The notes under the pieces were generated by a model that did no database searches, had not been told where the DNA came from, and saw only the letters and a list, made by a program, of their open reading frames with translations. A stretch of DNA of 64,000 nucleotides, from contig JAKSXM010000014.1 in assembly GCA_022575985.1 (NCBI GenBank), forward strand, positions 25,172,001 to 25,236,000. The letters run 5' to 3'. Shown here piece by piece: positions 2,065-61,167 of this stretch. The DNA is from Anagrus nilaparvatae. Taxonomy: Eukaryota > Arthropoda > Insecta > Hymenoptera > Mymaridae. Numbering within the stretch: position 1 is the first letter of the stretch; every line of letters begins with the position of its first letter. The translations under genes and the position numbers were made by a program.

Positions 2065-3526
2065 AGTCTTCGAGACTATAGTAAGAGTTATTTCCAATCG
2101 TTGATCCATTGTGTAGTATAAGCACTAGTTAAACTGATAAAGCATATCTCACACCTCCTGGTTCTATATATTTCTTTCTCATAATGAATTGACTATATAT
2201 TTTCATTATCTTTTTCCAATTAAAAGGCTGAAGTCTGACAACGAGGTTTCGTTTCCCGTTTGACAACTTTTCCAAAGAACAATGATGTATATTTATAATA
2301 CCTATAAAGATTCAACAAATACATTTATGTTTAAATAAAATCGATCTTGTATTTATGTTCAGTTAACACTACCAATGGTTTTTCCGCTTATAACAAACCG
2401 ATAACAAATATATATACACATGTTCCTACCTATATACGTTTATTTAAATGAGAAAGAGACCACAAGAGTAGCACGTAATATATAAAATTTATATATATGT
2501 TGGCTTTATGTTGACAACTAAAGAGAATTATAAAAGAAAATATTCAATTCAATTTTATAATACTATAGAAATGAATGCGAGTCACTGTTTTTTTTTTTAT
2601 AAATACATGATAAAAAAAGTAAAGTAGGCAAGAATTTAGTTTTTTATGTGAAAAATAGAAAAGCACATAATATGTCTTTTGTTTTAATTCAACTTTTATC
2701 GTTTAATTTTTTATTTTAAAATAATTTTATTGAAAAAATAGTTTGTTTACGTTGTGGATAATTTCAGATTTCGTTATCGGATTTACAGTTGCAGCTTCCA
2801 GATTTCCGTTCCGGCAGTTAGATTTTTTTTTTATTTTAAATAATTGCAAATGACATAAAACCTAAAGAAACTCATTAAAAAAATTTTTTTTTCTTTCAAG
2901 TCATTTAAAAAACTTTAAAACAAAAAAAAATTACGGCTGTCAGAATCGGAATTTTTTTCAGTGTAGAATATAGATAAAAATGCATCAGGGCCAAAAAGGT
3001 AAAAAAAGTTTTAACATTGGACAGGTTCATATTAGGGAGGCGGGAAGGTACTTGAAAAAGCTTCAAATATAGGGACAGGGGAGTAAAAAGTTAACATTCT
3101 TAGAGAGAGTCAGTCCTTTATTTTTCAGTGATAAAATTTTTAAAATAAAAATATTTTTAGAACATGTCCAAAAATCGGTGGAAATTCTACTTAAACACAC
3201 ACTCACAAGCACAAAACTGACATCAAAATCGATTTCTTAGCATCTGATGATCGAAAGGAACCAGAAAAAGTTTATACAAATATATTATTATACTGCCTGA
3301 ATTTGTGGAAACCTTCTAACCATAAAAGTTATTAATTTAATAAAGTTTTTGTATTACTTGTATTTTATTTCTTAGGATAAAAAATTTCTTTAAAAAAATT
3401 AATAAATACAGCTTGTTTTTTTGAAAAAAGACACTGCCACATGTTAAAAGCAGGGGAGAATTTTTTAATTTCTCTCAGTTCCAATCTTATTTTTATTCAA
3501 CTAAGTCAAACTTTCGGTATAATTTC
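1660..3526. other. AT-rich sequence with a TA microsatellite
   Basis: No gene is recognisable. A perfect (TA)n run lies at about 2033-2056. Mixed-composition patches near 2760-2830 and 2940 (TCGGAATTTTTTTCAGTG) resemble one near 11250-11310 and may be an old short element, but no paired ends were found. Confidence 0.5.
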
Positions 3527-3605
3527 ATGGGTTATATACGAATATTAAGTGTGATTTTCGTACTGATGAAGCTTGGTCACACTTAAGAAAGCTGAAATAA
3601 CCCAT
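3527..3605 (+). ncRNA. Hammerhead ribozyme, complete core (type III)
   Basis: All conserved parts of a hammerhead self-cleaving RNA can be read in order. Stem III is ATGGGTTA (3527-3534) with TAACCCAT (3598-3605). U16.1 is 3535 and H17 is A3536, so cleavage would fall between 3536 and 3537. Stem I is TACGAA (3537-3542) with TTCGTA (3557-3562). The core CTGATGA is 3563-3569. Stem II is AGCTT (3570-3574) with AAGCT (3589-3593). GAAA is 3594-3597. All three stems pair perfectly. The two 14-nt loops contain TTAAGTGTGA (3545-3554) and TCACACTTAA (3577-3586), a 10-nt perfect complement that could form the loop I-loop II contact known to raise hammerhead activity. Animal hammerheads usually reside in satellites, Penelope-like elements or retrozymes; no such body is evident around this one. 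Cleavage is inferred from sequence, not shown. Confidence 0.88.
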
Positions 3606-4500
3606 TTTTGCATAATTTTTTCGTAATTTTCATAATTTCAATTTTTATTTATAAATTTTTTTTTTTAATTTTCAATTTTTCTAAATTTAAATTCATAGTT
3701 TCAATAAAAAAATCGTTTTGATGAATAAAAGACTACTGATGGGTACGTTAATTAAAAGAGATATAGATTATATCCACGTATCAAAATGTGAGTTTATAAT
3801 TATAAATCGAAAAGATTTATTATTGTCCAACAAGGTCGAAGAAAAGTTATTTTAATCGAACTGTAATGTCTAGAAAGTTTCATCATATTCATGTAGTATA
3901 TACTGTTTAGTAAAAATTACTAAAAAGCTTTAGAAATTTAATGGTTATAAACAAGATTCTAAAAGAACCACAAAAAATTTATTCTAAAATTAATTACAAT
4001 TTTTTCTTAAAATTCGTAATAATTTTTCAAAATTTAATAAGCAAAGAAATAAAATTATATTCCAATCTAAGTTTATTTTATAACCCAGATTAATAATTAT
4101 TTAATTACTAGTAAATTAACTTGACATTACTAAAATTTCATATCCATTATTGGTAAAAGCTTGATATGAATTCGCACACAATATCTAACATGTTTTCAAA
4201 ATTATTATTATAATCCGAATGACGTCATAAACGTATATGTACCAGACTAAAATATCGATAAATCTTTTAACATAGAATAACGTATTTACACCTTATTTAA
4301 GGTATTATTTATTTTTCTTATCCAACAAAACTCATTTCTACATTTATATTTTTTTTTATACAAAATGTATATTAGGGTGGTTAAGAATTAAAAAAAAATT
4401 TTTAGGATTACAAAAATTCTTAACTTGTTTTGGAAAATTCTTAGACCCAAAAAATGGGTAATTTTAATTGCTAAAAAATGTTGGTACTCTGTTTTTGTCT
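3606..4500. other. AT-rich sequence, nothing recognised
   Basis: Downstream of the ribozyme there is only A/T-rich sequence with no gene, repeat boundary or structured element that can be supported. Confidence 0.5.
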
Positions 4501-8538: not shown

Positions 8539-9610
8539 TACTCCTGTCAAATCGCGGAGGGGGGGGGGGGGGTATATTTTCACTGGCCAACATGAGATTG
8601 GCTCTTCTATATGTTTTTTGGGTCGCTGATTATGAAAATCGGGGTCTTTTCCGGGAGATATTTTCGGAACACCCTTAATATTTCACCCTTAAATTAGCAA
8701 AAACAAATCCTAAAAGGGGTGCATTTGCAATTTATGCACTTTGCGCGACTAAATTAGGTCCATAAGGGTTTTTTGGGTCGCTGATTAAGAATTTGGGGGA
8801 ATTTTTCGTGAATAATAAATATTTCACCCTTAAATTAGCAAAAACAACCCCTAAAAGTGGTGTATTTATAGCAGACACTCCTTTTAGGGGTTGTTTTTGC
8901 TAATTTAAGGGTGATATATTAACTGTTCATAAAAAATTCCCCCGAATTCTTGATTAGCGACCCAAAAAAACCCGTATGGACTTAATTTGATCGCTCAAAG
9001 TATAAAAATAGCAAAAACATTCCTTTTAGAAGTTGTTTTTGCTAATTTAAGGGTGACATATTAATTATTCATAAAAAATTCCCTTGAATTCTTGATCAGT
9101 GACCCAAAATACCCGTATGAACCTAATCTGATCGCAAAAAGTGCGAAAATAGCAAAAAACCCTTTTTAGGGGTAATTTTTGCTAATTTAAGGGTGAAATA
9201 TTAATTATTCATAAAAAATTACCTCAAATTCTTGATTAACGACCCAAAAAACCCGTATGAATCTAATCTGATCGCACAAAGTGCGAAAATAGCAAAAACA
9301 TCCCCTTTTTTGGGTAAATTTTGCTAATTTAAGGGTGAAATAATTATTCATACAAAAATTACCTCAAATTCTTGATCAGTGACCCAAAAAATCCTCTTAA
9401 ACTAATTCTTGGCTAAATTTAGAAATTCAGTTTGCTAACATATCAAAAAACCCCTTTTTGGGGGTAGTTTTTGCAAATTTAAGGGCGTTCCGAAAATATT
9501 TCCCGGAAAAGACCCCGATTTACGTGATCAGCGACCCAAAAAACATATAGTAGAGCAAATCTCATGTTAGCCAGTGAAAGTACACCCTAAACCGCGATTG
9601 GACTGGAGTA
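8539..9610. mobile_element. Foldback element FB, copy 1 (1072 bp)
   Basis: The ends are TACTCCTGTC (8539) and GACTGGAGTA (9610), flanked by the 3-bp repeat GGT (8536-8538 and 9611-9613). Each arm continues with a conserved block containing TTTTCACTGGCCAACATGAG and then tandem subrepeats. The subrepeat signature GCGACCCAAAAAACCCGTAT, or its complement TTTTTTGGGTCGCTGAT, recurs near 8770, 8957, 9096, 9237, 9377 and 9521, a period of about 140 bp. Each subrepeat also holds a short palindrome of CCCCTTTTAGGGG type bounded by AGCAAAAAC and GTTTTTGCT. There is no ORF. A pure G run (8559-8572) lies just inside the left end only. Other copies are at 12252, 29530 (fragment), 58515 and 60224. Confidence 0.85.
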
Positions 9611-20526: not shown

Positions 20527-22060
20527 GTATACATATAAATATTTGTGTCCATATATATATATATATAGATATAAAGCTTTAAGAAAATACTTTTTAAAAA
20601 AATTTAATTTTAAGCAATACATAGAGCTATATATATATATATATATATATGCATATATAACAAAAAACTATAAAATAATATTAAATAATACACGAGATAA
20701 TACATTTTTCATACAATATAAAAAAATGTCTATACAATTTTGTTTTTTAGTATGCAGGAGATAAGTATATATATGCTACATATATGTAGATCTCATAGGG
20801 ATAGATGAATTCGCGCGTGGTCTTTGCCCAATGGGAATGACTACTCGTATTTATATATATGTATATATTGCAATTTCATGCGCTTGCGTTATATATTTAT
20901 ATATAGTAGAAAAATAAATGTTTAAAAAATTTAATACAAATAATAATAAAATACATATTTCATATATAATTTTTCTACTTTATTCTTTCATATATATATA
21001 TAAATATATATATATACTCATGTTTATATATATATATATACATATATATAGTTTAATATTTAACTTACTTAATTTAAAGTTAGTCAAGAATAAACATATT
21101 TGTCTCCTTTTCATAAATATTTTCTCAGATCATTGGTCCAGTGTCCTGAATTTTTCGACCGGTGGCGCTCATCAGTCGACATGATTTCTAATCCTTTTTT
21201 ACTATTTTTCCTTTTTGATTCTAAATAAACTTATTTTTCATTTTGAAAAAATATATAAAAATTATTTTTTACACACATTATTTTAACTGCTTATTTTTTA
21301 CAACCATTCTTTGTTTTATTTCGGTCAGAAAAAAAAAAATTTTTTACATTATTTTTTTTTTTTAATTTTATTATTACCATACACATTCACTTAGGTATTA
21401 AAATTTTTATTATTTAGTATTATTATTATTATTTTATTTAGCTTCAGAAAAACACAATTTTTTTAAAAAATAATTTTTTTTTATTTTTAAAAGTATGATT
21501 AAGTTTCAATTTTATTTATTATTAATTGATTTTTTATAACTTATTAATTTAATTTATGAATTTTTTTAAAATTTAATATATTTTCATCAAATATAACACT
21601 GAAAACCATAAGAACCATACACACGAAATATCAACTATGAAATAAAAATTATTTGGTCGTTAGCCCCGTCTACTCAGTCCAATGATCGTTGCACGACTGA
21701 TTTTACCCATTTCTGTATGATAAATATGTATATATATATATTTGTATTTATATACATATATATATATATTTTCTCTCGATGCGGGCGCGTCGCGGCGCAG
21801 CCTCTCTTTCGAGCTTTCTCATCTTAAATTCTTTTACTCTCTCTTTTGAGCTTCCAAATGCTCTCACTCTGGGCATTTTCACTTGTTATATGCGTGCGCA
21901 AAATTTTTAAAAATTCAAATAGAACGAAAAAAAATTTTTTAAATCTAAAAAATTCAAGAAAAAAAATAATAAAAAATATGGTTCTATTATAACAGTAAGT
22001 ACAACAATTAAATAAGCAGGTTTTTAAAAAGATTTCAAGTATCATATTTTAGAAAGCACA
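19900..22060. repeat. TA/ATAC microsatellite tract with small GC-rich islands
   Basis: Runs of (TA)n and related ATAC repeats occupy 20490-20525, 20553-20570, 20628-20652, 20995-21055 and 21725-21770. Small GC-rich islands break them: CACCGGCCGCGCC near 19935, GTGCGCGCGCGCGAG near 20075, CGCGCGTGG near 20812 and GATGCGGGCGCGTCGCGGCG near 21780. The tyrosine/isoleucine-rich open frames here are translations of the microsatellites. The islands could be regulatory, but nothing in them identifies a promoter. Confidence 0.7.
21153..21175 (-). other. Hammerhead-core-like motif, unproven
   Basis: The minus strand reads CTGATGA (21175-21169), 12 nt, then GAAA (21156-21153), the spacing of a small hammerhead stem II. 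The 12 nt pair only poorly, and no convincing stem III with an NUH site was found. The same bases on the plus strand contain GGTGGCGCT, which resembles the insect CTCF core. Either reading is speculative. Confidence 0.25.
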
Positions 22061-23912: not shown

Positions 23913-25649
23913 CTGTGTGACAATTTTTTCGCGCAACAACTTTTAAAATGGATTGCTCAGGCTGGAATTAATATTTTTAGGTGAAACTTGGTGGGAATAT
24001 GTAAAAATATGTAGAGAATACAATGCCGTAGTTGGTTTTGCATAAAATTAATCATAAAAAGAAATAAAAATTTTATTTTTGAGAAAAAAACGTTTTTTTT
24101 TCAATTTTTTTTAGAAAATGGTAATTAGGTTCAAAAAAATGCTAAAATATCAATCGGTACTTATTAATGTTGAAAACTTTTGGAAATATCGTGAAATAAA
24201 AGTTAAGAATTTTAAATTTTTATTCGTAAAATTAGTAAATAAAAATATATCGAATTCAACTTCAAGCCTAACCTGAATTTGATTAATTTAGGAACGCATG
24301 AATGTAATAACATGGCGGCCTTGTTTATATCCGGTAGGTATTTACTATAGAAAATTTAATCAGCTGATCGGTATTATTCTATTTACATGTCACTAGTGAA
24401 CTTAATTCTTAATTAAATTAAAGTAAAAAGTGCTAGTTGAAATAAATTATAAATAAAAATAAATTATAAAAAATAAATAAATGAATATAAAGTGATAGTA
24501 GTGAATAATAAAAAAATTGTGCATCATGAAATTGTGTTATGTATATTAGCACACATTGGTTTTTTTGTATCCGAGACGTTTTGACGTTTTATTGAATTAG
24601 ATGCGCAAGATAATTCTACATTTTTTTTAATAATTATTTTAGTGCACAAGTATCGATTAAAAAGAGGCTGCGTCTATTTACCCAGAAATTATGGATAAAT
24701 AACCTCAAAATTTCAGAAACTTTTTTTCATAGATTTCACTCATAATAATTAAAATTTTTAAAAAATTATATTTAAATCTTATAAAGTACTAAAAAAAATA
24801 GTTAATTTTTCATAACAAATTTTAATATTCAGTGCAGAGTGCAGAAAAGCAAGCAAAATAAACCTTAAGTTGAGGTTCAAAATATTTTTTTTTCGTAAAT
24901 GTGTGAGTGCATTTTACGTAAAAAATTACTGAGTAAATAGACTTTGCGTATGTATCTTTTTAACGTCAAATCCCTAAAATATTCATTTACTACAAAAGAG
25001 AAGTATACAACATTATGATTGCACTGAAAAATAAATTTTCTTATCAGCTCATCAATATAAGGAGTATCACTTTTTGTTAAAAAAATCATTTTTTTATTGC
25101 CTTTTAGGTCCAATGCTCTCCGCTCTCACTCGAATAAGCAAAGTATGCAAATACTGCATGGTTTATGACAACTTTATGAAATAGTCATTTAACTTGTAAA
25201 TATTCAAACAATTTTAAAACTAAAACTTTAACTAATTTGTAAATTTAAAATGTTATTGTTGTAAATGATAATTTTAAAATTTATTTTAAAAATGGTTTAA
25301 TAAAAAATTGTTGCTGAACAAAGTAAGCTATTTCTTTAAAATTTTGTGCACAAGTGTCGAGTCACATGATAAATATAGATTTTTTAAGTTTGAAGATGTT
25401 CAATGAAAGATAATTTGATTTCATCGTTATAAATTAATTAAAAGTATTTCTCATTCATTGTGATGATTACCTGATTATTTAATTGAGAAAATTTTGTGCA
25501 CAAGTATCGAGTCACAAGATACATATTTTTTAACTTTGAAGATGTGCAATACAAGATTATTTTACTTCATCGTTATAAATCAATAAAAGTTTTTTTTTTA
25601 TTCATTGTTATTATTACCTGATTAGTTTTTTTTTTAATCTAATACTTAC
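23913..25649 (+). repeat. Left outer arm of the composite element
   Basis: This matches 56393 back to about 54664 in inverted orientation with very few differences over ~1.7 kb. Both arms hold an open frame of up to 78 codons, 25113 to 24877 here. It opens with TTG rather than ATG and differs from its mirror copy by one residue, which simply reflects arm identity. Two tandem ~145-bp units with GTGCACAAGTxTCGAGTCAC lie at about 25348-25630. Near-identity of arms 30 kb apart implies recent origin or conversion. Confidence 0.9.
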
Positions 25650-29360: not shown

Positions 29361-31639
29361 AACCAATTTATTTATATATTTTTTACTCAGCAATTCGATT
29401 AAATCACTTAGTTCAAGAAATAATTTCCAAAAATCCTTTAAACCCCCAATTAATTCTAAGTATAGAATATGGTTGGGAAAAATTTTTCGTATTGATGTGT
29501 AAAATAAGAGTAACAAGTTTTGTCAACTCTCAGGATATCGCTAGTTGCGAAAACACCCTTAAATTTGCCAAAAGTACCCCTAAAAAGGTTTTTTTCTATG
29601 TTTTCGAATTTCGAGCGGTCAGATTTTGTCCATATGGGTTTTTTGGGTCGCTGATCAAGAATTTCAGGGGGTTTTTTATGAAAAGTTAATATTTCACCCC
29701 TAAATTAGCAAAAATTACCCCTAAAAAGGGGTGTTTTTGCTATTTTCGCACCTTCAGTATTCAGATTTGGTTAATATAGGTTTTTTGGGTCGCTGAACAA
29801 GAATTTCGGGAAATTTGTTATTAAAAATTAATTTTTCACCCTTTATTTAGCAAAAACTACCCTAATGCGCGCAATCAAGGAATATAACTTTTTTTTAAAT
29901 ATTTCCAAATTGTTAGAATTGACAGAAAAAGTTTAATTTATGAAAATTCAGACTTTAAATATTTATTACCTTAAAAATTTAATATTTTTGTGATCTTTAA
30001 CTAATTATCAATAAAAATAATAATTATTTATTAACAGCAAAAGTTAATATTTGTTGAAAAATAAATTTTTTTCAAAACTTTGACCAAGTTTAAATTAAAC
30101 TATCCTTTAAAAATTTATGTTAAAATTTGTTGACAATATTACATTTTCTAAATTAATAAATAGTTTTATTTCTCAGCAAACTAACTTTTCCTGTTAATAA
30201 ATAATTATTTTTATTAATAATCAATTAAAGATGACTAAAATATTAAACTTCCAAAGGTTTTTTGTTACTTCACTAACCTAAAATAATACTTATTTTTGAG
30301 TTATTTGCAATTATCTGCCAAAAAACTGCGAAAAAAATAGATGGTACTTGAAGATTATTATATTCTTTACTTAAATTATAATACATTTATTCAATTTCAG
30401 CAAAAAATTTTTTTTAAATCAATAATTAATAAGCGATCTCCATAAGAACTTATGTTAAAAACGTCCATTGTTTTCTACCCGAATCCACGTTGTGTTAGTA
30501 AATAGCTGATGGTTAAATACTCTATTATATACTAACTCCGATGCGACGCACGCGCATAGCCACGGAGTAAAAAATCAAGTAATTCATACCAACAGGTTTT
30601 TAAACGTGTTACATTTAATCGATTTCGCCATGGGCGATGGCACCCTACTGAGTTTCCATTTACATGATCAGATAAATAAACTATTCAAAAATAAATTCCA
30701 AAAAAAATAAAATCGATATACATTTTCAGTTTTAAACGGCATTATAAACTTCTTTAAGAAACAAGGAATTTTTTTTGCTCGGCACTTATCGCAATTTTAA
30801 TGTATATATCAAAATTTGCAACCGAAAAATAAAAAATAAACATACCATCCAAAGCTGCAGAATATTCCAATTAAAATAAGACCTATTTTACTGTTCTAAG
30901 ACTTTTCTTTAAATCAGTATTCTCAAAAGAAATTCAAAGTCAAAAAAAAAAAATTTTTTTTCCGATTGGCCAAATATTTAAGTTTCAATATTTTTGGGCG
31001 TATCAGACATATTTAGATTACGCAAACTGAAATCTTTTCCCAATGATATAAAAAATAACAATCAAAAAAAAATTTTTTTTAATTTTTATTCTAACCCCCC
31101 CAAAATTTTGCATTAAATTAAAGAAAATTCGTTCCAACTAAAATTTGTCCATGTGGACAAAATTTAAGAGACAATTTTATCAAAATATTTTTTTTTTATT
31201 TAAAAAGGTTTTAGCAACTTAGTGTACATTTTTTTTTATACAAAAAATTGCACGTTTTTAAAATTCATTTTTTTTGGACCGAAGGCGGTACATTTTTAAC
31301 AAATATGCATACCAATGGCGCGCGCAGAAGTAAATTTAAGGTACAATTTAATTTTCAATTTTCTCGGGATGGGTAGATTGTACAGAAAGCTATAGGGACT
31401 CTTTGGATAGGGGATTGGATAAGCTTTATTTTGCATTAAAAAATTTTTTTTTATCTTGAATAGTTTGCCCGTAATTTAAAAAAAACTGAAAACGCAAAAC
31501 TAAAAATTGATTTGCCAAAATTCGCGATACTCGGCGAGTTGACAAAACTTGTTCCCCTTATTGTACACATCAATACGCACAACTTTTATCCCAACCATTT
31601 TCTATACATAGAATTAATTGGGGGTCAAAAACTATTATT
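29361..31639. other. Spacer between inner arms, with an FB fragment
   Basis: An FB-family fragment occupies 29530-29870 (separate entry). The rest is AT-rich without a gene. Around 30533-30573 an imperfect hairpin pairs ACTCCG with CGGAGT and ATGCG with CGCAT in otherwise structureless DNA. CGCCATGGGCGATGG near 30630 is a second small GC-rich self-complementary patch. The 111- and 88-codon frames in this stretch overlap repeat fragments and are not genes. Confidence 0.5.
29530..29870. mobile_element. Foldback element FB, truncated fragment
   Basis: Two subrepeats of the FB family lie in the same orientation, with the signature TTTTTTGGGTCGCTGATCAAG at 29640 and a variant at 29781, 141 bp apart. 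Each is accompanied by ACCCCTAAAAAGGGGT-type palindromes. There is no mirror-image arm and no CTCCAGT end, so this is a relic of one arm. Confidence 0.8.
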
Positions 31640-34110: not shown

Positions 34111-34834
34111 GTTCTTTACTTTTGAAGTTTATACAATGTAAATTCAAAAATTTTGTATTTCTCGTGTCATTATTAAGTACAGAAATAAACTGTGAATAAA
34201 GTGACATAATAAGTCTTTTATAATTAAATAGTATGCACATATCAAATTATGTGTCAATAAACTCATAAAAATATAACCTTACTTTTTTCGACGTTAATTT
34301 TGGCGCAATTACTAGTTACACTGTGGAATTATTGTGTACTTCAATTCCATAGTTAAAATATATTCAGATACTGTCGTATATATAAGGAGTCTAAGTGAAA
34401 AGTAGAAATTTTTAATATCAAAAGCAAACAATTTTAGAATAATTTATTATTGCTAAATTTTGTGAAAAATTAAACACCTTTTCTATTATCATGTAAAACT
34501 CCAAGAAATTTCTACATTATCAGCATGGGTTTCTATAGATTTCACTCAAAACAAACCTTATTTATATACGAAAATCAATTCTTTTTACACGCATAATTTC
34601 ATATCAAGTCTGACGGAGAAGATAAAATAGTAAACAAAGCAAGGTGTTTATATACTTCTAATTACTTTATAGGTGTAAATGTTCTCATCACAACGACAGA
34701 CCAAGAAATGAACAAGATTCATAAAATTTCATGATAATTTAAATATTTTCTTTATCTTTTTATATTTCAGTATATCTATGTAAACTATTTATTCGTAGAA
34801 AAATGCGTCAACAAATATGTTATATCTGTAGCAA
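34111..34834. other. Unique AT-rich spacer between satellite blocks
   Basis: No unit of either satellite block could be recognised here, and there is no gene. It separates the degenerate block from the homogeneous array. Confidence 0.55.
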
Positions 34835-35469
34835 ATTATTAATTTTAATAAGGTTATCAAGAATCTAAATAAATTTAAAGTACTGACATGTTTGAATATA
34901 TTTTCTGGCAAGATAGTTTATTCTGGAACTTCTAAATTTACAAAATAGCTTTTAAATTGTTTTATAAATCTGGAAAGAAAAAAAGATTAAGTATTTTACA
35001 ATACAGTTGGCTGTTTAAATTTAAAGACTGCTTTGTTTCTAAGCATAATATCTTATATTATCTTGCTGGTAAAAAACAGAATAAAATTCAGGCTTGAGAA
35101 ATTCATCCAAAATTTTTATAATATTATCAAGAGACTAAATCAGTTGAAAGTACTGATATGTTTTTTACTATAATTTGTTTTAGGAAAATTCATAGCAGTA
35201 CTTTGAAAACTCACGTGAGATCCTTTAAAATTATTGAAGGAATATTAACAGAAATTTATTTTTTAATTTTACGTCTCGTATGAAAAATTACGATTATTAA
35301 ATAATACGACCTTTCCAGACAATGATAAAATTCTTAAATACTCGTGCAGACATGTGGTGTAATATTTACACTCTAAATATATCAGACAGTGTAGTATTAT
35401 TATGTTAAGAACAATCAATAAGATGTTTAAAAATTTTTTATGTTGGGAAATTCCGAAAAATTTTTCGGA

Positions 35470-35560
35470 AAATCTCAAGGTCATTTCGCCTATTGGCTAA
35501 ACAGTGTGAGGCTTCATCAGTATGATCACTGTTTAGCCTTAATCATAGATACCAAGATTT
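35470..35560 (-). ncRNA. Hammerhead ribozyme, slightly decayed
   Basis: Read on the minus strand, the site TATC is followed by stem I TATGATTA/TGATCATA (one G-T pair), then core CTGATGA, stem II GCCT/AGGC, GAAA, and an imperfect stem III whose outer part pairs AAATCT with AGATTT. Loop I contains GGCTAAACAG and loop II CTGTTTAGCC, a 10-nt perfect complement, as in the ribozyme at 3527-3605. The base that should pair with A10.1 is missing, leaving a bulge, so activity is doubtful. Core, order and loop pairing make the identity secure. Confidence 0.75.
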
Positions 35561-36210
35561 TAATAAAAAATCAATTTTTTATTTTTTAAAAATTAAAAAA
35601 ACAAAAAATTTCTTTCAAATTATTAATTTGGGATTTTCCGTAATATATTTCGGAATTTCCCAACATAAAAAATTTTTAAACATCTTATTGATTGTTCTTA
35701 ACATAATACTACGCTGTCTGATATATTTAGAGTGTAAATACTACACCACATATCAGCACGAGTATTTAAGAATTTTATCATTGTCTGGAAAGGTCGTATT
35801 ATTTAATAATCGTAATTTTTCATACCAGACGTAAAATTAAAAAATTTTTAAATTGAAGCATTGACGGCGCTTTAAATAATTTAACAGCTTGTTTAATATC
35901 ATCAAAATTTCCCTCAATAAGCAATTAAAAATTTTATTTTTTTTTTTAAATAATTTTAATTTAAAAAATTTTTTTAAAATCTTTTTTCAAAAATTTATTT
36001 TCAAGTAGTTTGTTTTTTGTACTACGTGCATTCCTTATAACACTGTTGGACCAGATGGCCTTTGTGAGGGATGATGGGAGTAAAAATCTCTTTCTCTCCC
36101 CATCATTTCACAGTTCATCTTCGCCGAGTCAGTACTTTTTTGAATTAATAACTCGAAAGAAATTTTTTGTTTTCTTAATTTTTAAAAAATAAAAAATTGA
36201 TTTTTTATTT

Positions 36211-36303
36211 AAATCTTGGACATCTATGATTAAGGCTAAACCGTGATCATACTGATGAAGCCTCACAATGTTTCGACAAGAGGTGAAATGACCTTGGGAT
36301 TTT
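36211..36303 (+). ncRNA. Hammerhead ribozyme, decayed copy
   Basis: This is a plus-strand relative of the copy at 35470-35560. The cleavage site would be CATC (after 36224), stem I is TATGATTA with TGATCATA, the core CTGATGA is 36252-36258, stem II is GCCTC/GAGGT (one G-T pair, A10.1 bulged) and GAAA is 36285-36288. Stem III keeps its outer AAATC/GATTT part. The loop I-loop II complement is largely lost through substitutions in loop II, so this copy is probably inactive. Confidence 0.65.
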
Positions 36304-39300
36304 CCTAAAAATTTTTTGGAATTTCCCAACATAAAAAATTTTTAAATATCTTATTGATAGTTAGTCTAGTACATAATACTAGACTGTCTGATATATTTAG
36401 AATGTAAATATTACACCGAATATCAGCACGAGTATTTAAGAATTTTATCATTGTCTGGAAAGGTCGTATTAATTAATAACAGAATATTATATTATTTTTT
36501 AATTATGCAGTTGGCATATTGAATTTTAAATATGCTGTAACAGTAGAATATTATCATATCATTTTCGGCTGCTAATAACAGAACAAAAATATATTCAGGT
36601 TAATTCATCAGGAATTTTAATAAGTTTATCAAGAGTCTGAATAAATATAAAGTACTGACATGTTTAAATTTATTTTCTGTCAAGATAGTTTATACTAGAA
36701 CTTCTAAATTAACAAAAGACCTTGAACCTTTTTTTATTGTTCTAGAAAGATAAAAAATTCAATATTTTATAATGCAGTTGGCTGTTTAAATTTAAAGACT
36801 GCTTTGTTTCTAAGCAAAATAATAATATCTTTTAATATTAACAGAATCAAATTCAGGCTTGCGAAATTCATCCAAAATTTTTATAATTTTATCAACAGAC
36901 TAAATCAGTTGAAAGTACTGATATGTTTTTTACTATAATTTTTCCTAATTCATAGCAGTACTTTGAAAACTCACGTGATCCCTTAAAACTATTGATTGAA
37001 TATTATCAGAATATTGTATTTTTTTTTAGTTATGCAGTTGGCATATTAAATTTTAAATATGCTGTAACAGTAGCATATTATCATATAATTTTCGGCTATT
37101 AATAACAGAACAAAAATCTATTCAGGGTAATTTACAAGAAATTTTAATAAGTTTATCAAGAGTCTGAATCAATTTAAAGTACTGATATGTTTAAATTTAT
37201 TTTTTGTCAAGATAATTAATTCTGGAACTTACAAAATTACAAAAAACCTTGAAACTTTTTTTATAGTTCTAGAACGAAAAAAAGATTAAGTATTTTATAC
37301 TGCAGTTGGCTGCTTAAATTTAAAGACTGCGTTGTTTCTAAGCATATTATCTTATAATATTTTGCTGGTAACAACAGAATCCAATTCAAGCTTCAGAAAT
37401 TCAGCCAAAATTTTTATAATTTTATCAACAGACTAAATAATTTGAGAGTACTGTTATGTTTTTTATTATAATTGGTTTTAGGAGAATTCATAGCAGTACT
37501 TCGAAACCTCACGTAATCCCTTATAATTATTGATGGAATATTACAGAATATTATATTATTTTTTAATTCTGCAGTTCGCATATTAAATTTTAAATATACT
37601 GTAACAGTAGCATATTATCATATAATTTTCGGCTACTAATAACAGAACAAAAATCTATTCAGGGTAATTTATAAGAAATTTTAATAAGTTTATCAAGGGT
37701 CTGAATCAATTTAAAGTACTGATATGTTTAAATTTATTTTTTGTCAAGATAATTATTTCTGGAACTTACAAATTTACAAAAAACCTTGAACCTTTTTTTA
37801 TATTTCTAGAACGAAAAAAAGATTAAGTATTTTATACTGCAGTTGGCTGTTTCAATTTAAAGACTGATTTGTTTCTAAGCATATTATCTTATAAGATTTT
37901 GCTAGTAACAACAGATACAAGTTTAGGTTTGAGAAATTCGTTCAAAATTATTATACTTTTAGCAATACACTAAATACGTTGAAAGTACTGATATGTTTTT
38001 TACTATAATTTTTCCTAATTCATAGCTGTACTTTGAAAACTCACGTGATCCCTTAAAATTATTGATGGAACATTAAAAGAATGTTATATTGTTTTTTTAT
38101 TATGTAGTTGGCATATAAAATTTTAAATATGCTGTAACAGTAGCATATTATCATATAATTTTCGGCTACTAATAACAGAACAAAAAACTATTAAGGGTAA
38201 TTTATAAGAAATTTTAATAAGTTTATCAAGAGTATGATTCAATTTAAAGTACTTATATGTTTTAATTTATTTTCAGTCAAGATAATTAATTCTGGAACTT
38301 CCAAATTTACAAGAAAACTAGAACCTTCTTATATAGTTGTAGAATGATAAAACGATTTAGTATTTTATAATGCAGTTGGCTGATTAAATTTAAAACTGCT
38401 TGTTTCTAAGCATATTAACTTATAATATTTTGCTTGTAACAAAAGAATGAAATTCAGGCTTGAGAAATTTATCCAAAATTTTTATAATTTTATCAACAGA
38501 CTAATAATTTGAAAGTACTGTTATGTTATTTTCCTATAATTTGTTTTGGGAAATTTCATAACAGTACTTCGAAAACCCACGTAATCCCTTATAATTATTG
38601 ATGGAATATTACAGAATATTATATTATTTTTTAATTCTGCAGTTCGCATATTAAATTTTAAATATACTGTAACAGTAGCATATTATCATATAATTTTCGG
38701 CTACTAATAACAGAACAAAAATCTATTTAGGGTAATTTATAAGAAATTTTAATAAGTTTATCAAGGGTCTGAATCAATTTAAAGTACTGATATGTTTAAA
38801 TTTATTTTTTGTCAAGATAATTAATTCTGGAACTTACTAAATTACAAAAAACCTTGAACCTTTTTTCATAGTTTTAGAACGAAAAAAAGATTAAGTATTT
38901 TATACTGCAGTTGGCTGTTTAAATTTAAAGACTGATTTGTTTCTAAGCAAAATAATAATATCTTTTAATATTAACAAAATCAAATTCAGGCTTGAGAAAT
39001 TCATTCAAAATTTTTATAATTTTATCAACAGACTAAATCAGTTGAAAGTACTGATATGTTTTTTACTATAATTTTTCTAAATCATAGCAGTACTTTGAAA
39101 ACTCACGTGATCCCTTAAAATTATTGATTGAATATTATCAGAATATTGTAATTTTTTTAGATATGCAGTTGGCATATTAAATTTTAAATATGCTGTAACA
39201 GTAGCATATTATCATATAATTTCCGGCTATTAATAACAGAACAAAAATCTATTCAGGGTAATTTACAAGAAATTTTAATAAGTTTATCAAGAGTCTGAAT

Positions 39301-54440: not shown

Positions 54441-56393
54441 AAATATCGAAAACACGTGATTTTGAGCCTTCCAACTCAAAAAAAAAACTATTGTACACGC
54501 AACATTTCTGTTCATCGCTTTTCCGTTACTATATATGATGTAAGGAACACAAAAAAACGTATTTGCAAGGTGTGTCTTCAAATTTTTTTTTCCAAAGTTT
54601 GAACATATAAGCGCAATTTTTTTATGGAATTTCTCATATAAGTAAACAAGTATTAAAAAATACTAGATTATTTAAAAAAACTAATCAGGTAATAATAACA
54701 ATGAATATAAAAAAACTTTTATTGATTTCTAACGATGAAGTAAAATAATCTTGTATTGCACATCTTCAAAGTTAAAAAATATGTATCTTGTGACTCGATA
54801 CTTGTGCACAAAATTTTCTCAATTAAATAATTAGGTAATCAATACAATGAATGAGAAATACTTTTAATCAATTTATAACGATGAAATCAAATTATCTTTC
54901 ATTGAACATCTTCAAACTTAAAAAATCTATATTTATCATGTGACTCGATACTTGTGCACAAAATTTTAAAGAAATAGCTTACTTTGTTCAGCAACAATTT
55001 TTTATTTAACCATTTTTAAAATAAATTTTAAAATTATCATTTACAACAATAACATTTTAAATTTACAAATTAGTTAAAGTTTTAGTTTTAAAATTGTTTG
55101 AATATTTACAAGTTAAATGACTATTTCATAAAGTTGTCATAAACCATGCAGTATTTGCATACTTTGCTTATTCGAGTGAGAGCGGAGAGCATTGGACCTA
55201 AAAGGCAATAAAAAAATGATTTTTTTAACAAAAAGTGATACTCCTTATATTGATGAGCTGATAAGAAAATTTATTTTTCAGTGCAATCATAATGTTGTAT
55301 ACTTCTCTTTTGTAGTAAATGAATATTTTAGGGATTTGACGTTAAAAAGATACATACGCAAAGTCTATTTACTCAGAAATTTTTTACGTAAAATGCACTC
55401 ACACATTTACGAAAAAAAAATATTTTGAACCTCAACTTAAGGTTTATTTTGCTTGCTTTTCTGCACTCTGCACTGAATATTAAAATTTGTTATGAAAAAT
55501 TAACTATTTTTTTTAGTACTTTATAAGATTTAAATATAATTTTTTAAAAATTTTAATTATTATGAGTGAAATCTATGAAAAAAAGTTTCTGAAATTTTGA
55601 GGTTATTTATCCATAATTTCTGGGTAAATAGACGCAGCCTCTTTTTAATCGATACTTGTGCACTAAAATAATTATTAAAAAAAATGTAGAATTATCTTGC
55701 GCATCTAATTCAATAAAACGTCAAAACGTCTCGGATACAAAAAAACCAATGTGTGCTAATATACATAACACAATTTCATGATGCACAATTTTTTTATTAT
55801 TCACTACTATCACTTTATATTCATTTATTTATTTTTTATAATTTATTTTTATTTATAATTTATTTCAACTAGCACTTTTTACTTTAATTTAATTAAGAAT
55901 TAAGTTCACTAGTGACATGTAAATAGAATAATACCGATCAGCTGATTAAATTTTCTATAGTAAATACCTACCGGATATAAACAAGGCCGCCATGTTATTA
56001 CATTCATGCGTTCCTAAATTAATCAAATTCAGGTTAGGCTTGAAGTTGAATTCGATATATTTTTATTTACTAATTTTACGAATAAAAATTTAAAATTCTT
56101 AACTTTTATTTCACGATATTTCCAAAAGTTTTCAACATTAATAAGTACCGATTGATATTTTAGCATTTTTTTGAACCTAATTACCATTTTCTAAAAAAAA
56201 TTGAAAAAAAAAACGTTTTTTTCTCAAAAATAAAATTTTTATTTCTTTTTATGATTAATTTTATGCAAAACCAACTACGGCATTGTATTCTCTACATATT
56301 TTTACATATTCCCACCAAGTTTCACCTAAAAATATTAATTCCAGCCTGAGCAATCCATTTTAAAAGTTGTTGCGCGAAAAAATTGTCACACAG
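54441..56393 (-). repeat. Right outer arm of the composite element
   Basis: From about 54664 outward it is the near-identical mirror of 25649-23913. The first ~220 bp mirror 28464-28690. It includes the mirror 78-codon frame (55192-55428), which opens with TTG, and the ATGGCGGCCTTG-complement block near 55985. At 54640-54665 it preserves the empty site for the 2.8-kb element of the left arm. Confidence 0.9.
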
Positions 56394-60223: not shown

Positions 60224-61167
60224 TACTCCAGTCAAAATACGGGGGGGGGGGGGTTGTATTTTCACTGGCGAACACGAGATTTGCTCTACTATAAGTTTTT
60301 TGTGTCGCTGAACACGAAAATCGGGGTCATTTCGTAAAGAAATAGGGGCTCCACCCTTAAATTTGCAAAAACTACCCCCAAAAAGGAGTTTTTTTTACAT
60401 ATTCGCACTTTGAGTGCTCAGATTTGCACCATACGGGTTTTTTGGGTCGATGATTAAGAATTTTGATTTCTTTTTCATAAATAATCAATATTTCACCCTT
60501 AAAATAGCTAAAACTACACCTAAAAGGGGTGTTTTTGTTATTTTCGCACTTTGAGCGTACAGGATATGCCCATATAGGTTTTTTGGGTCGTTATTCAAGA
60601 ATTTGGACTCCTTTTTTGTGGTGAAATATTAATTATTTATGAAAATGAAGTCGAAATTATTAGTAACCCAAAAAACCTATATGGGCATATCCTGGATGAT
60701 AAAAGTATGAAAATATCAAAAATACCCCTTTTCGGGGGTATTTTCAGCCAATTTAGGGGTAATATTTTAATTATTTATGAAAAATAAGTCGAAATTCTTG
60801 ATAGCGACCAAAAAAACCCTATATGGGGATATCTTTCATGCTCAAAGTGCGAAGATAGCAAAGACACACCTTTTAGGGGTAGTTTTAGCTATTTTAAGGG
60901 TGAAATATTGATTATTTATGAAAAAGAAGTCGAAATTCTATATCAGCGACCCAAAAAACCCGTATGATACAAATTTGAGCGCCCAAAGTGCGAATATGTA
61001 AGAAAACCACCTTTTTGGGGGTAGTTTTTGCAAATTTAAGGGTGAAGCCCCCATTTCTTTACGAAATGACCCCGATTTTCGTGTTCAGCGACCCAGAAAA
61101 CCTATAGTGAAACAAATCTCGTGTTCGCCAGTGAAAATACAACCAAACCCGTATTTTGACTGGAGTA
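60224..61167. mobile_element. Foldback element FB, best-preserved copy (944 bp)
   Basis: The ends TACTCCAGTCAAAATACGG and CCGTATTTTGACTGGAGTA are inverted matches, flanked by TTC (60221-60223 and 61168-61170). Subrepeat signatures point inward from both sides: TTTTTTGGGTCGxTGATTAAG near 60440 and 60580, complements near 60662, 60802, 60943 and 61085, spaced 140-142 bp. Each carries a CCCCTTTTxGGGG palindrome. The left end has a pure G run (60241-60253) where the right end reads GGGTTTGG. A 3-bp duplication here and in copy 1 suggests a superfamily with 3-bp targets (for example PIF/Harbinger or CACTA), but there is no protein to test this. Confidence 0.88.

Follow-up and report, generated by a model that had tools for sequence, protein, structure and literature searches.

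The hammerhead motif at positions 3527–3605 (+) of the window (the whole 64,000-nt stretch of DNA analysed here, G000:C1:25172001-25236000, in an assembly of 488.7 Mb) is part of a repeat that is dispersed through the genome, and a second dispersed repeat family carries a hammerhead of its own. The best reading of these repeats, judged from their sequence, is that they are non-autonomous, retrozyme-like retroelements that bear an unusual type III hammerhead. A first-pass annotation of the window had described the motif as apparently isolated, with neither a satellite nor a retroelement around it. This description proved to be wrong; the motif lies inside a dispersed repeat with a 553-nt unit, and the window also contains two decayed hammerheads of the second family.

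By direct reading and with a script, we assigned the parts of the window hammerhead (family A), all of which lie on the forward strand. Stem III (9 bp) is formed by 3527-3535 with 3597-3605, stem I (6 bp, TACGAA/TTCGTA) by 3537-3542 and 3557-3562, and stem II (5 bp, AGCTT/AAGCT) by 3570-3574 and 3589-3593; direct reading places the core boxes CTGATGA and GAAA at 3563-3569 and 3594-3597, respectively. The first pair of hammerhead stem II is usually G-C; here it is A-U. Position 17 is occupied by A3536, an allowed base (H17) that adjoins stem I, and the hammerhead scheme predicts cleavage immediately after it, at 3536/3537. The arrangement is that of a type III hammerhead, with the core CUGANGA ... 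GAAA, H17 next to stem I, loops closing stems I and II, and stem III open. Loop I (3543-3556) and loop II (3575-3588) both have a length of 14 nt, and their sequences predict a 10-bp loop–loop helix between TTAAGTGTGA (3545-3554, loop I) and TCACACTTAA (3577-3586, loop II). The complete hammerhead with a 10-nt loop–loop complement that the first-pass annotation had reported is thus borne out. The motif scores 95.2 bits against our own covariance model, which includes this sequence.

A chance origin of the motif, which had also been judged unlikely at the outset, is indeed improbable by comparison with shuffled sequence. Strict type III matches with summed stems of at least 20 (the window's value) arose 12 times in 29,738 dinucleotide-shuffled windows, and when two 14-nt pieces are taken at random from the window, the probability that they share a complement of at least 10 nt is 3.9e-4. 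(Among 2256 shuffled type III matches of any stem length, the longest loop complement was 12.) Two other occurrences of CTGATGA...GAAA, at 3244-3267 (+) and 21153-21175 (-), were absent from the output of the type III scan and were dropped. Two pattern scans of viral contigs gave 0 and 2 matches, and there was no hammerhead around one of the latter, L001.

The Rfam models gave a different outcome. No family reached its gathering score in a scan of the whole window; 7 matches at E up to 10 were returned for positions 3400-3750, and 4 matches at E up to 5 for the loci L064, L016 and L061, with hammerhead families absent from both sets. A covariance score below threshold is half of the result that the first-pass annotation had named as refuting the hammerhead, the other half being absence of cleavage at the predicted site. 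We set this miss aside because the copies, the second family and the covariation described below each back the motif independently, and in our view it probes the library of models and not a property by which the RNA is defined. The case also displays hammerheads that are missed by current Rfam models.

The search of the genome for further copies that had been proposed with the first reading found both families to be dispersed repeats, with at least 46 matches to the family A region (40 of 226 candidates scored) and at least 57 to the family B region (40 of 192 candidates scored), the window's own included in each count. An exact pattern that runs from the 3' strand of stem I to GAAAT and that fits both families occurs at 119 sites in the genome, and its reversed control at 0. 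All but two of the pattern sites listed look A- or B-like by eye; listed matches of different sequence lie at C62:19705470 and C152:798314. The unit is 553 nt in family A (reference L016:896-1448) and 661 nt in family B (reference from L064). As located by the genome search and by a comparison of boundaries across 39 loci, the window's family A copy spans 3409–3851 (+), or about U106 to U551, and is shorter at both ends than the fullest copies; its right edge falls anywhere from 3665 to 3860 depending on the alignment, mostly at 3843-3860. The hammerhead of family A is better conserved than the rest of the unit (minor-base fraction 0.029 vs 0.075; rank 7 of 475 windows), and the corresponding fractions in family B are 0.029 vs 0.058, with a rank of only 167 of 586. 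In two family A copies, L034 and L037, about 16 nt upstream of the cut are swapped for a different stretch that the two share, and stem III is broken up to the cut.

Within the window, a plain pattern search yielded two further candidates, at 35484 (-) and 36252 (+), both of them decayed family B hammerheads. That at 35478–35554 (-) (65.3 bits, own covariance model) has a decayed stem III and an intact 12-nt loop complement; that at 36217–36294 (+) (67.2 bits, own covariance model) has a mismatch in stem III and a broken loop complement. They sit in a head-to-head pair of family B copies, the left arm of which spans 35258–35628 (-) and comprises UB385-661 followed by UB5-92, while the right arm spans 35628–36491 (+) and comprises UB539-661, UB1-661 and UB1-71, that is, 864 bp or 1.3 units head to tail. 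Intact family B copies elsewhere carry the loop strands GGCTAAACAGTG and CACTGTTTAGCC, which form a perfect 12-nt complement; its probability by chance, for loops of 15 and 17 nt, is 7e-5. The long loop–loop complement claimed for the window hammerhead is strengthened by this second family and by the pairing-preserving differences described below. The family B pair is inserted in a satellite-like tandem repeat of about 268 bp that occupies 34708-38000. The same head-to-head pair recurs at 11 other places, with the right-arm copy 96-99% identical, and so seems to be carried along by a larger repeat that was amplified recently.

Several further features of the window and the assembly were recorded. 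Tandem repeats of about 140 bp are dispersed over 8875-9391, 29554-29862 and 60352-61046, and their units look related. An 82-codon open frame occurs twice, at 24877-25125 (-) and 55180-55428 (+), with one residue different, and the copy at 55180-55428 (+) has no Pfam match over the cut-off; in all, 10 of the 26 listed open frames of the window were compared with Pfam, and no family scored above the cut-off. The assembly contains two COX1 genes that are readable under the invertebrate code, L127 (on C146) and L128 (on C18), and may hold more than one organism. Further pieces of COX1 lie on additional contigs that include C244 and C264; the pieces on these two are split and might be intron-bearing (fungal-like, at a guess). 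A nuclear mitochondrial insertion on C62, a contig that also carries copies of both A and B, is 96.3% identical to L128 and 73% identical to L127, and chalcidoid wasps head the ranking of named relatives of the L128 protein, with identities of 84-87% for the first ten. Because the C62 insertion matches L128 and the relatives of L128 are chalcidoid, the genome carrying the window is likely that of a chalcid wasp, an assignment whose basis is L128 and C62 and not contig C1 itself.

To compare the two families pair by pair, we aligned 13 copies chosen from A and B. In three stem pairs both bases differ from one family to the other and yet still pair: the stem III pair 5-74 (U-A in A, C-G in B) and the stem I pairs 11-33 (C-G in A, U-A in B) and 14-30 (A-U in A, U-A in B). 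With two families only, each such A/B difference counts as one event. The covariation score of 0.217 and the proportion of paired cells, 88.0%, were each reached by 0 of 500 shuffles, and sliding the partners lowered both values, the best slid score being 0.147. The number of pairs with two-sided change (3) was close to the shuffle mean of 2.4, with 227 of 500 shuffles as high, and the number of further pair types did not beat the shuffles at all (500 of 500 as high). Stem II has no common register in the two families; that of B is GCCU/AGGC, and between it and the preceding core box stands a single additional base, mostly A or U, that does not pair.

Pairing within the loop helix was surveyed with an ungapped filter that tolerated up to 14 mismatches and dropped copies with indels or more decay, leaving 55 copies of A (40 distinct) and 32 of B (21 distinct). 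Among the distinct copies, 383 of 400 loop-helix cells in A and 241 of 252 in B hold standard pairs. In one copy, L061, an A-U pair of the loop helix has turned into G-C on both sides, a single case among the 21 distinct B copies; no compensated loop-helix pair was found among the 40 distinct A copies. The better argument for the loop helix is that the loop strands of A and B differ and that each pair of strands is nonetheless fully complementary. The contact between stems I and II is thus a prediction, drawn from complements of 10 and 12 nt and one compensated pair.

The lengths and arrangement of the copies bear on how the repeats are propagated. By a hand count that includes small insertions, 11 of 39 family A loci are longer than 553 nt: L016 (593 nt), L018 (606), L020 (614), L034 (619), L028 (622), L013 (639), L019 (687), L040 (707), L014 (723), L023 (867) and L012, the longest at 887 nt. 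Because they exceed one unit, some of the A copies carry a direct repeat of 40 nt at their ends. Genomic copies of more than one unit are what would be expected from the copying of circular or tandem RNA, and they suit a process in which such an RNA serves as the template for target-primed copying. We think it probable that the motif cuts tandem transcripts of the repeat to unit-length RNAs, which would be circularized and then reverse-transcribed back into the genome by a borrowed enzyme. In such a cycle the hammerhead would cleave tandem repeat transcripts into unit-length monomers, the monomers would be ligated into circles, the copying into DNA would be primed at an A-rich 3' site, and the reverse transcriptase would be supplied by another element.

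The ends of the copies raise the alternative that the repeats are SINE-like or Penelope-like fragments that moved as linear RNA, with no circle and with the ribozyme at most trimming 5' ends, which we regard as a real if lesser possibility. Such a route would agree with the 5' ends, which vary among copies of both families, and with the head-to-head inverted pairs, which are present in A as well as in B. It would also agree with the few 5' ends that lie at the predicted cut. An active ribozyme would lead one to expect that DNA copies of cleaved RNA begin there. For family A, copies whose starts coincide with the cut (U233/234) or lie only a few bases from it are L087 and L091 (one insertion), L088, L090, L098, L133 and L137 (one insertion, by eye exactly at U234), L136 and L140. 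(Samples for this count were picked by sequence downstream of the motif, with 40 of 43 rows traced and 11 new loci; the starts of five sampled near-cut copies were refined by eye; and seven insertions in loci fetched earlier, none of which starts at the cut, were added.) Merging copies with common flanks reduced 50 copies to 40 clusters, or 47 with the added insertions, although the cluster of L041, L109, L136 and L140 may represent separate insertions in one kind of target. Depending on the rule chosen, ends at the cut then number 4 of 47 with conservative merging (P 0.048 or 0.023), 6 of 47 with liberal merging (P 0.006 or 0.001) and 3 of 47 with raw BLAST starts and conservative merging (P 0.15 or 0.10); the unmerged count is 7 of 46. 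In family B no 5' end falls at the cut (UB469/470), the nearest being UB474, 4 nt inside, and several fall inside the motif (UB474-531). By eye, a second cluster of B 5' ends lies at UB315-385, well upstream of the hammerhead. What a linear route accounts for less readily is the copies of more than one unit that run past the cut, which need a tandem or circular template, although uncut tandem transcripts could supply one.

At the other end of the repeat there is a preferred 3' end: of the 39 A loci that were retrieved by querying with the hammerhead region, 18 end at U34-U51, in a listing that covers only terminal pieces ending at U30-U60. The other 21 of the 39 do not; L012, L014 and L038 run on to U84-U109, and the remaining ones, the window copy among them, end elsewhere. 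All 20 further A loci end at U34-U51, but the query used for them contained that end. Terminal pieces of B end at UB58-72 or UB84-104, among pieces ending at UB40-110. Matching between the flanks of 27 copies, as expected of target-site duplications, was at the null level (equalled or exceeded by 222 of 500 shuffles), in a test that is weakened by AT-rich flanks.

If the repeats moved with the help of the hammerhead, it may have done so only in the past, with no copy active now. In keeping with such a fossil, many copies are truncated or mutated, and the core and all helices are intact in only 6 of the 40 distinct A copies and 4 of the 21 distinct B copies of the helix survey. We nonetheless consider it unlikely that the hammerhead is wholly extinct, given that several copies are identical across the motif and that one array, at L141, holds three intact hammerheads of the same sequence, two in tandem at a distance of 575 nt and the third inverted; both kinds of identity could, however, reflect recent duplication.

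Folding energies were predicted for two states of the motif. In family A, a hairpin that combines stem III with the loop helix is predicted at -22.5 kcal/mol, compared with -13.3 kcal/mol for the hammerhead minus the loop helix; the corresponding values in family B are -26.2 and -10.7 kcal/mol. Because the energy of the loop-helix duplex (-11.2 kcal/mol in A, -18.5 kcal/mol in B) is left out of the hammerhead state, these energies do not show which state wins. When pseudoknots are disallowed, the fold predicted to have the lowest energy is the hairpin of stem III and the 10-bp helix (z -4.5). Folding one reference unit per family as a circle, with 60 shuffles each, gave z -1.4 for A, which is not notable, and z -6.5 for B. 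The idea that the motif is a mere hairpin in mobile DNA, a foldback or MITE-like palindromic repeat in which the hammerhead core is decoration or chance, draws on this minimum-energy hairpin and on the commonness of inverted copies but is improbable, as it leaves unexplained stem I, stem II, both core boxes and the two pairs of stem I in which A and B have different bases on either side, and as the 5' ends are variable and not fixed terminal repeats.

For the retrozyme-like elements that we favor, the hairpin suggests a second role for the loops. The prediction is that the loop–loop helix keeps stems I and II alongside each other for catalysis, and the same helix could also lock the inactive hairpin and in this way shield circles from a second cut. 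The loop helix and the three stems have no base in common, and therefore all four could coexist as a double pseudoknot. These features raise the possibility of a new architecture, in which a loop helix of 10-12 bp, about one full turn, forms part of a double pseudoknot able to switch between an active, cutting fold and a hairpin that resists cutting, so that closed circles would last long enough to be copied into the genome for more than one lap; the elements would then be the first type III retrozymes of the non-LTR kind in animals. We put this forward tentatively, and think it somewhat doubtful as a whole.

In the available parts of the literature, plants and circular RNA agents are the main sources from which type III hammerheads are described, and the retrozymes of animals are given as type I (PMC7761336, PMC7229834). 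Across the portions of the sources consulted, the known range comprises type I retrozymes of animals, type III LTR retrozymes of plants, extended type III hammerheads with a short pseudoknot, and pseudoknots of 4-6 bp (PMC7936874, PMC7761336, PMC7229834, PMC3088659, PMC11722881, PMC6155905, PMC10886601). In searches on insect type III hammerheads and retrozymes, hymenopteran hammerheads and loop–loop pairing, no such element appeared among the matches listed, which consisted of titles and abstract openings, with subscription journals mostly outside their scope.

The metazoan non-LTR retrozymes are described, in the part of the source available, as repeats of 150-450 bp with type I hammerheads (PMC7229834). 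Like them, the elements described here are small AT-rich hammerhead repeats of a kind that is often tandem and for which a circular RNA and a borrowed reverse transcriptase have been proposed (PMC7229834, as available in part). Unlike them, the present elements are of type III, have units of 553 and 661 nt, and carry long Watson–Crick loop complements (compared with the available part of PMC7229834). Head-to-tail hammerhead repeats, a trait of the metazoan set, are present here, whereas a type I hammerhead, another such trait, is absent, the topology being that of type III; we therefore say that the element works like a retrozyme and not that it belongs to the metazoan set. Target-site duplications in that set, when present, exceed 4 bp; over our 27 copies, with AT-rich flanks that weaken the test, nothing rose above the null. 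Penelope-like elements differ in carrying a minimal type I hammerhead, whereas the one described here is of type III with a full stem III.

With the LTR retrozymes of plants, as portrayed in the excerpts at hand, the present elements share a type III hammerhead, paired units and a circular RNA model (PMC11722881, PMC7761336). For the plant elements these excerpts describe LTRs, a primer-binding site, a polypurine tract and short non-Watson–Crick loop contacts (PMC11722881, PMC7761336). Extended type III hammerheads are reported, in the part of the paper available, from HDV-like RNAs of a toad and a termite and from termite and dipteran genomes, and that part reports no further ones in hymenopterans (PMC7936874). 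These too are of type III, occur in insects and have a Watson–Crick pseudoknot between helix I and loop II (PMC7936874, in the same part). In them, as there described, GCCR of an internal loop pairs with YGGC of loop II, and helix I bears an extra hairpin (PMC7936874). By contrast, the contact proposed here would join two terminal loops of 14-17 nt that are complementary over 10-12 nt.

In the pseudoknotted hammerheads of Perreault et al. 2011, according to the passages available, loop I likewise pairs with nucleotides at stem II (PMC3088659). Those passages give pseudoknots of 4, 5 and 6 bp, as against the complements of 10-12 nt found here, and report that shortening such a pseudoknot cut activity about 20-fold to more than 100-fold (PMC3088659). 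Set beside these systems, the two families found together in an insect genome have a much longer loop complement, and they offer a natural, testable hammerhead with loops that could serve to silence it as well as to activate it.
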